Of a stretch of 64,000 bases of DNA, positions 5,600 through 7,838 are shown piece after piece. Under the pieces are notes generated by a model. The model was not told the DNA's origin, searched no databases, and was given only the letters and a program-made list of their open reading frames with translations. Origin of the DNA: Reyranella massiliensis 521 (GTDB lineage Bacteria > Pseudomonadota > Alphaproteobacteria > Reyranellales > Reyranellaceae); the NCBI GenBank assembly GCA_945862125.1, contig CAMAYC010000001.1, positions 43,649 through 107,648 on the forward strand, written 5' to 3'. The position numbers were made by a program, and so were the translations under genes. Numbering within the stretch: the first letter of the stretch is position 1; each line of letters opens with the position of its first letter.

Positions 5600-6595
5600 A
5601 TGTCCACGAGCCCGACCGCAGGCAAGAATCGCAAGAAGGTGCTGATCGTCGGCCGCATGCCGCAGGCCGGCCTGGACGTGCTCAAGAAGCGCGACGACGT
5701 CGATTTCGAGATCCTGGCCGACGATACGGTTCCGTCGCTGCACCCCAAGCTCAAGGACGCCCATGCTGTGACCCTGGGCGGCACGCCGTTCCGCCAGGCC
5801 GAACTCACCGCCGCGCCGGAGATGATGGTTGTGGCCCGCCTCGGCGTCGGCTTCGACGCGGTCGAGATACCGGCCCTCAACAAACGCAAGATCCCGCTCA
5901 TGACCACGGGCATCGCGAACTCGGTGTCAGTGGCGGAGCATGCGATGTACATGCTGCTCGCCGCCGCGCGGCTCACCAAGAAGTCCGACCGCTGGGTGCG
6001 CACCGGCGCCTGGGGCGAGCGCCTCAGCGACCTGCCGTCCGACGTGGCGGGCAAGAAGGTCCTGGTGATCGGCATGGGCCGCATCGGCTCGCGCACGGTG
6101 AAGCGCTGCGTCGCCTTCGAGATGGAGACCTATGTGCTCGATCCGAACGTGTCGAAAGCCGACATCGAGAAAGCCGGCGCCACCAAGGTCACGGACCTCA
6201 AGGCAATCCTGCCGCAGGTCGACTACGTGTCGATCCACTGCCCGAAGGCGCCCGAGACGATCGACATGTTCAACGCCGAGACGCTGGCGCTGATGAAACC
6301 CACGGCATTCCTGGTGAACACCGCGCGTGGCGGCATCATCAACGAGGACGCCCTCTACAATGCGCTGAAGAGCGGCAAGCTGCGCGGCGCCGGCCTCGAC
6401 GTGCTCGACAAGGAGCCGCCGGATCCCACGAACAAGCTGTTCGAGCTCGAGAACGTCTTCTTCAGCCCGCACATGGCCGGCGTCACCCAGGAAGCAAGCG
6501 ATCGCATGGCGGTGACCGCCATCGAAAACATCCTGAGCGTTTTTGACGGCCGTCCCAACGCCGCCCATTGCGTGAACAAGGAAGTGCTGGGCTAA
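5600..6595 (+). CDS. D-isomer specific 2-hydroxyacid dehydrogenase (phosphoglycerate dehydrogenase-like)
   Basis: VIGMGRIGSRTVKRC nucleotide-binding motif, NTARGGIINEDAL, DVLDKEPPDP...HMAGVT. Confidence 0.9.
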   Translation: MSTSPTAGKNRKKVLIVGRMPQAGLDVLKKRDDVDFEILADDTVPSLHPKLKDAHAVTLGGTPFRQAELTAAPEMMVVARLGVGFDAVEIPALNKRKIPLMTTGIANSVSVAEHAMYMLLAAARLTKKSDRWVRTGAWGERLSDLPSDVAGKKVLVIGMGRIGSRTVKRCVAFEMETYVLDPNVSKADIEKAGATKVTDLKAILPQVDYVSIHCPKAPETIDMFNAETLALMKPTAFLVNTARGGIINEDALYNALKSGKLRGAGLDVLDKEPPDPTNKLFELENVFFSPHMAGVTQEASDRMAVTAIENILSVFDGRPNAAHCVNKEVLG

Positions 6596-6810
6596 CCCGG
6601 CACCAGATCCTCGATCTCCTCGTCGGTCGGAAAGCGGCCGGTCTTGCTGCGGGTGTATTTGAGCGCGCCGTCGACGGTGACGTCGAACTGGCCGGATTTG
6701 CCGGGGCGCAGCTCGATGTCGGCGGCGCCCCGCTTTTCGAGGTGTGCCCTCACACGGAGGGCCTGCGGCTTATAACCTCAAGCGCCGCAATACTCGATCA
6801 GGACTTTCAT
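6592..6810 (-). CDS. SelW/Rdx-family selenoprotein; in-frame UGA (6780..6778) read as selenocysteine
   Basis: ATG at 6810..6808; codons ATG AAA GTC CTG ATC GAG TAT TGC GGC GCT TGA GGT TAT AAG CCG...; 72 codons plus TAG, frame intact on both sides of TGA; YCGAUGYK motif; downstream hairpin. Missed by ORF track. Confidence 0.85.
6746..6762 (-). promoter_or_regulatory. putative bacterial SECIS hairpin of the SelW-like gene
   Basis: RNA 5'-GCCCUC CGUGU GAGGGC-3': perfect 6-bp stem, 5-nt loop, G at second loop position; 21 nt between UGA and loop. Confidence 0.65.
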
Positions 6811-6857: not shown

Positions 6858-7838
6858 ATGAAATACGGACCGCTCGGCCGCTCGGGCCTGATCGTGAGCA
6901 GGATCTGCCTCGGCGGCAATTCATGGGGCGCCAAGGGTCGCCGCGGCTGGGGCAAGTTCGACGAGGCCGAGGCGCCGGCCTACTTCAAGCGGGCGCTCGA
7001 TGTCGGGATCACCTTCTTCGACACTGCAGACGCCTACAACGCCGGCCGCTCCGAGGAGATCATGGGCGCTACGCTCATGAAGATGGCGAAGCGCGAGGAA
7101 TTCGTGTTGTCGACCAAGGTCGGCATCCGCATGAGCCCGGTGGCCAACGACCAGGGCACCGGCCGCAAGCATCTGATGGCCGCGGTCGACGAGCAGCTGA
7201 AGCGCCTGCAGACCGACTATCTCGACGTCTACCAGGTCCATCGGCTCGATCCGCACACGCCGATGGAAGAGACCATGTACTCGCTCGACCAGATCGTCCG
7301 CTCGGGCAAGGTCCGCTACATCGGCGGCTCGACCATGCCGGCCTACAAATTCGCCCAGATGGTGATGATCGCCGACTGGAAGGGCTATGCCCGGCCGATA
7401 GCGATGCAGAACCTCTACAATCTCATCCAGCGCGAGGAAGAGCGCGAGATGAACCGGCTGTGCGACGAGCAGGGCGTCGGGCTCATTCCCTACTCACCGC
7501 TGGCGCGCGGCTTCCTGGCCGGCAATCGCAGCAAGGACGGCGGCGGCTCGACCGAGCGCTCCAAGAACGACACGGTGGTGAAGGACGGAACCTATCGCGA
7601 CAGCGATTGGGAGATCGTGAAACGGCTGAAGAAGATCGCCAAGGAGAAGGGCGCGACGCCGGCCCAGGTGGCGCTGGCCTGGCTGCTGCACAAGCCCTAC
7701 ATGGGTGCGCCCATCATCGGCGCCACCGACCTCGACCAGCTCACTTCGGCCGCGAAATCGACCGAGATCGCACTCACGCCGGAAGACTCCAAGCTGCTCG
7801 AGCAGCCCTACGAATTCCGCGTGTCGCCCGAGAACTAA
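6858..7838 (+). CDS. aldo/keto reductase
   Basis: MKYGPLGRSGLIVSRICLGG..., FFDTADAYNAGRSEEIMG, YLDVYQVHRLDPHTPMEETM. Confidence 0.95.
   Translation: MKYGPLGRSGLIVSRICLGGNSWGAKGRRGWGKFDEAEAPAYFKRALDVGITFFDTADAYNAGRSEEIMGATLMKMAKREEFVLSTKVGIRMSPVANDQGTGRKHLMAAVDEQLKRLQTDYLDVYQVHRLDPHTPMEETMYSLDQIVRSGKVRYIGGSTMPAYKFAQMVMIADWKGYARPIAMQNLYNLIQREEEREMNRLCDEQGVGLIPYSPLARGFLAGNRSKDGGGSTERSKNDTVVKDGTYRDSDWEIVKRLKKIAKEKGATPAQVALAWLLHKPYMGAPIIGATDLDQLTSAAKSTEIALTPEDSKLLEQPYEFRVSPEN

Follow-up and report, generated by a model that had tools for sequence, protein, structure and literature searches.

A conserved hairpin with the features of a bacterial SECIS element in the coding sequence of an alphaproteobacterial SelW-like selenoprotein gene

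INTRODUCTION

The consensus for bacterial SECIS elements (bSECIS) describes a hairpin with a loop of 3–9 nt and a stem of 4–16 bp, located 16–37 nt from the UGA and with a minimum free energy (MFE) below −7.5 (PMC13188914 Fig. 2; PMC1088965). Under the accompanying loop rule, one of the first two loop bases is a G, and the base after it is G or U (PMC13188914; PMC1088965). In Epsilonproteobacteria, the genes for SelW, FDH, and SelD carry a 5/6-bp hairpin with covariation at pairs 1–5 and an invariant loop G (PMC4607533). SelW-like proteins are a leading bacterial selenoprotein family in the marine surveys of the Sargasso Sea and GOS (PMC1088965; PMC2398784), and their Cys forms are few, or lacking, in organisms that use Sec (PMC1794560).

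Here, we describe a SelW-like gene in a 64,000-nt stretch of the genome of Reyranella massiliensis 521 (hereafter, the window). Like the SelW-like selenoproteins of the surveys, its product combines a CxxU motif with an Rdx/SelW domain, and its UGA is followed by a bSECIS; it differs from them in belonging to an alphaproteobacterial subfamily, YCxxU[G/N]Y[K/E]PxALR, in which the SECIS sequence is nearly fixed. The element shares with its counterparts in Epsilonproteobacteria a 5/6-bp hairpin a few nucleotides past the UGA, covariation at pairs 1–5, and an invariant loop G (PMC4607533), although it comes from another bacterial class and the comparison is one of geometry. Both the SelW-like family and this type of SECIS are already known, and the element, as their counterpart in Alphaproteobacteria, adds a member to a known kind.

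RESULTS

The SelW-like gene and its in-frame UGA

The SelW-like (Rdx family) gene occupies 6592..6810 on the minus strand (219 nt), ends with a TAG stop codon at 6594-6592, and encodes 72 residues when UGA is translated as U: MKVLIEYCGAUGYKPQALRVRAHLEKRGAADIELRPGKSGQFDVTVDGALKYTRSKTGRFPTDEEIEDLVPG. The in-frame UGA (6780-6778, minus strand), read as selenocysteine, takes the second position in the redox motif CxxU, here YCGAU, and aligns with the Cys of distant homologues. Accompanying the motif is an Rdx domain, with scores of 60.8 bits against Pfam Rdx PF10262 (cut-off 22.6) and 47.6 bits against NCBIfam TIGR02174 CXXU_selWTH (cut-off 34.2); the score against the Campylobacter equivalog NF041051, 72.3 bits, was under its cut-off of 88. 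The profile of the protein also matched solved structures of the SelW type, 2fa8, 2p0g, and 2npb among them. As part of the SECIS explanation as a whole, we are confident that the product is a 72-residue CxxU protein, which, judging from established knowledge, would have a redox role. A convergent, plus-strand 2-hydroxyacid-dehydrogenase-like gene ends with a TAA (6593-6595) that overlaps the TAG of the SelW-like gene (window 6592-6595), and a divergent aldo/keto-reductase-like gene begins beside it at 6858.

In the family, 55 of the 75 genomes surveyed carry the SelW-like gene, with exactly one internal TGA in 55/55 and Cys in 0/55. The sample of the wider class (386 genomes) yielded the UGA form in 28 genomes and a distant Cys form in 18. 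The 55 family genes, together with 25 from the wider class, make up our set of 80 alphaproteobacterial UGA homologues.

An in-frame TGA, in a gene that was missed by standard gene finding, could be a true stop codon or a sequencing error, followed by a pseudogene or read through by a near-cognate tRNA with the help of a hairpin that is a generic readthrough stimulator. Such an explanation is highly unlikely, as UGA is found at the same codon, with the protein intact on both sides, in 80/80 alphaproteobacterial homologues, the UGA form co-occurs tightly with SelA (see below), and tRNA-Sec, SelB, and SelD are encoded. An ordinary stop codon was therefore rejected, based upon the 80/80 UGAs and the Sec machinery.

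Sec machinery and a second selenoprotein

The R. massiliensis 521 genome encodes selA, selB, selD, and a tRNA-Sec with a UCA anticodon. Three of these (tRNA-Sec, selB, and selA) share a 10.7 kb contig, C155, with a UGA-containing fdhA, and selD is located on contig C48. The tRNA-Sec lies about 50 nt 3′ of the selB stop; since the stop region is at L002:1446-1448, and tRNA-Sec starts from L002:1500, the two do not overlap in this genome. Within the class sample, SelA scored over the cut-off in 27/28 genomes with the UGA form versus 29/358 others (Fisher p = 8e-25), and the sole UGA-form genome without it is 77% complete. By comparison, just 2/18 Cys-form genomes have SelA over the cut-off. The same was true of 71/75 family genomes, some of them without the SelW-like gene, which fits FdhA as another user of the Sec machinery. 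The SelW-like gene is absent from 20/75 family genomes, nearly all with SelA, indicating loss or gain of the gene against a background of retained Sec decoding.

FdhA is the second UGA selenoprotein of this genome, and its hairpin, GGCC-AGUCUU-GGCC, begins 14 nt past the UGA. This hairpin, or a variant of it, follows the fdhA UGA in about 20 family members, as counted among loci found with a search motif that missed about ten FdhA loci. The two hairpins of this genome both lie past a UGA and both expose a G-U close to where the loop begins; they differ in that the stem of FdhA is GGCC/GGCC and its loop, AGUCUU, starts 18 nt past the UGA. Presumably, the same SelB reads both hairpins via the common loop G-U.

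A hairpin downstream of the UGA

The initial annotation had proposed a candidate SECIS hairpin at 6746..6762, with 21 nt between the UGA and a CGUGU loop, and both letters and minus-strand coordinates proved to be exact. The 5′ arm, GCCCUC, is at 6762-6757, the loop at 6756-6752, and the 3′ arm, GAGGGC, at 6751-6746 (all minus strand). Between the UGA and the foot of this 6-bp stem is a 15-nt spacer (6763..6777, minus strand; DNA sequence GGTTATAAGCCGCAG), and the length of the spacer is constant across all UGA homologues in the ungapped alignment. Read continuously, the spacer GGUUAUAAGCCGCAG is followed by GCCCUC-CGUGU-GAGGGC (6762-6746, minus strand). The RNAfold check suggested by that annotation placed the hairpin within the MFE structure of the first 40–50 nt past the UGA, with −13.2 kcal/mol for 45 nt.

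It had also been claimed that the geometry fits that of a bacterial SECIS, and the published constraints (PMC13188914) bear this out. The hairpin lies in the coding region, 3′ of an in-frame UGA, at a distance of 21 nt (allowed, 16–37 nt); its stem is 6 bp, of which 5 bp are conserved (allowed, 4–16 bp); its −13.2 kcal/mol compares with an MFE limit of −7.5; and its 5-nt loop has G at position 2 and U at position 3, with G at position 2 followed by U or G in 80/80 alphaproteobacterial homologues. In a departure from the common pattern, no pair forms here between the first loop base (C) and the last (U or C), so that the optional N1-N2 closing pair is absent. An Rfam scan of the whole window, and of a 311-nt region, matched no family to the hairpin and found no SECIS family. 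A covariance model made from the alignment of UGA homologues found the element once in the window, at 50 bits (a match by construction); the next-best match was only 11 bits, and there is thus no second SECIS of the same type in the window.

As a single-sequence observation, however, the hairpin is weak. The window contains 1545 TGAs on its two strands (797+748), and 330 of them (174+156; 21%) precede a stem of 5 bp or more in accord with the bSECIS loop and spacing rules, with a model-fitting stem of 6 bp or more after 150 (10%). When the SelW-like protein was synonymously recoded, model hairpins of at least 6 bp arose in 0.8% of the recodings and those of at least 5 bp in 18%. Furthermore, 39% of the recodings folded at least as stably as the native sequence, so MFE alone does not discriminate. 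The case must rest on comparative data.

Conservation of the hairpin among UGA-containing homologues

The 80 alphaproteobacterial UGA sequences align without gaps over 45 nt past the UGA (80/80). Most of them have the core stem CCCUC/GAGGG, and the variants are CGCUC/GAGCG, CUCUC/GAGAG, CCCGC/GCGGG, and CUCGC/GCGAG, some of which entail an amino-acid change. In the 25 wider-class relatives, the loop CG[U/G] and the five inner pairs are maintained, with compensatory changes. One core pair is broken in 7/80 homologues (L011, L017, L020, L038, L099, L106, L108), and the 45-nt MFE favors another fold for several sequences.

Covariation was assessed with 32 distinct sequences, 31 of them alphaproteobacterial and one from Myxococcales, which is the entire cross-phylum sampling of the UGA form; the sequences are related and the counts below are consequently of non-independent events. 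RNAalifold recovered exactly the inner five pairs, with compensatory changes in 3/5. A count over all six pairs gave 10 double-change cells, compared to 1.4 ± 1.0 in shuffles (0/500 as high), and the covariation score of the stem was 0.193 versus at most 0.083 for slid partners. Whether judged by paired cells, double-change cells, pair types, or score, the stem exceeds all 500 shuffles, and it exceeds every slid register. The stem is therefore conserved among UGA orthologues, in that its inner five pairs are kept through compensatory changes. The perfect 6-bp stem of the initial annotation is present in the R. massiliensis sequence itself, but the conserved stem is one pair shorter: the outermost G-C pair forms in just 6/32 distinct sequences and was accordingly excluded from the conserved element. 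We therefore define the SECIS as a 5-bp hairpin, CCCUC/GAGGG with loop CGUGU (6747..6761, minus strand), delimited by RNAalifold, compensatory changes, and codon preference, and separated from the UGA by 16 nt.

Cys homologues

No Cys orthologue of the SelW-like gene was found within the family (75 genomes). Among the sampled classes, all five core pairs were formed in register in 0/41 distant Cys homologues. The stem is thus not equally conserved in Cys homologues, although the 41 belong to a distant, YCTQC-type subfamily with different residues and the Sec/Cys contrast therefore lacks codon-by-codon matching. In two nearer Cys homologues, 3 and 2 of the five core pairs are formed in register. 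One Cys-subfamily match (L084, on contig C179 of genome G409, which has SelA and counts among the 18 Cys-form genomes) is broken by a TAA and is possibly a pseudogene.

A scan of the genome collection with the protein alignment, in which a Cys codon was required at the Sec position, found two loci. One, L112 of a Myxococcales MAG, has tandem SelW-like genes at about 590-1142, the first with UGA and the second with Cys, which make up a natural Sec/Cys paralogue pair. The UGA gene of L112 has a hairpin, GCUGCC-AGUCU-GGCGGC, in the same register, with stem letters unrelated to those of Alphaproteobacteria, and the adjoining Cys gene lacks the hairpin. A Verrucomicrobiales Cys homologue is likewise without the hairpin.

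Codon usage under the hairpin

Codons under the hairpin were compared to those further downstream in the same 55 family genes. Three codons are invariant there (55/55 genes each): GCC, CUC (24% in the background), and GUG (10%). AGG is used in 50/50 cases of Arg (4% in the background), and the Arg codon at the loop is CGU in 49 genes, CGG in 6, and CGC, the background choice in 63%, in 0 of 55. These preferences have p values of 1e-13 to 1e-72, which are too small since they treat the sequences as independent, and usage is normal further down the gene. Confinement to CGU and CGG, with CGC excluded, agrees with the prediction of the published loop rule, G[G|U] (PMC13188914).

The initial annotation had cautioned that the stem overlaps conserved coding sequence, and the protein stretch concerned, QALRVR, is indeed conserved. 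The stem might accordingly be a by-product of that stretch without a role of its own, and hairpins of at least 5 bp in 18% of the recodings, and after 21% of the window TGAs, add to the appeal of the idea. Yet the codon pattern goes beyond what coding constraint alone can account for, as CUC, CGU/CGG, GUG, and AGG, all rare codons, are fixed under the hairpin, against normal usage further downstream, and a purely coding origin was rejected on codon usage. Moreover, the stem is kept through compensatory changes that alter the amino acid (Leu to Arg in L091, Arg to Ser in L095), and the Myxococcales homologue attains equal geometry with unrelated stem letters. We consider it very improbable that the stem is such a by-product.

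At 36–39 nt past the UGA (window 6739-6742, minus strand), 39/55 family genes, and 0/25 of those outside, have the motif CCUC; the Leu codon at this site is CUC in 47/55 family genes versus 24% in the background. The motif could pair with GAGG of the SECIS 3′ arm, in competition with the hairpin. That the family uses CCUC/GAGG pairing and the SECIS hairpin as a two-state switch that tunes Sec insertion is, in our opinion, very unlikely. The potential competition, together with the lack of an Rfam match and hence of a library assignment, could also be taken to mean that the hairpin acts as a terminator, a small-RNA, or a ribosome-stalling element, besides or instead of Sec decoding. We regard this as extremely unlikely: the hairpin agrees with bSECIS in position, size, and loop rule, it goes together with UGA genes, and a terminator was rejected as there is no U-tract past the hairpin.

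DISCUSSION

We conclude that the hairpin is, with high probability, a bacterial SECIS inside the reading frame of a SelW-like selenoprotein gene, where it would direct the insertion of Sec. This conclusion is based upon the conservation and covariation of the hairpin, the selection on its codons, its absence from Cys forms, and the presence of selA, selB, selD, and tRNA-Sec. In the mechanism that we envisage, the mRNA would fold 15–16 nt past the UGA into a 5-bp stem with a 5-nt loop that exposes G-U at loop positions 2-3. From established knowledge, SelB, carrying Sec-tRNA-Sec, would be expected to bind this hairpin through its C-terminal domain, the complex would thereby be on hand at the ribosome as the UGA reaches the A site, and Sec would be inserted in place of termination.

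The gene adds an alphaproteobacterial family, of 72 residues, to the known selenoproteins, one that standard gene callers would truncate at the UGA. Covariation and codon-level data indicate that the SECIS of the SelW-like gene is under selection, and the fixation of CGU/CGG, to the exclusion of CGC, amounts to natural selection on the G[U/G] rule of the loop in the genes of 80 species. The SelW-like and FdhA SECIS elements, which have different stems in the same genomes, help to define what a single SelB must recognize.
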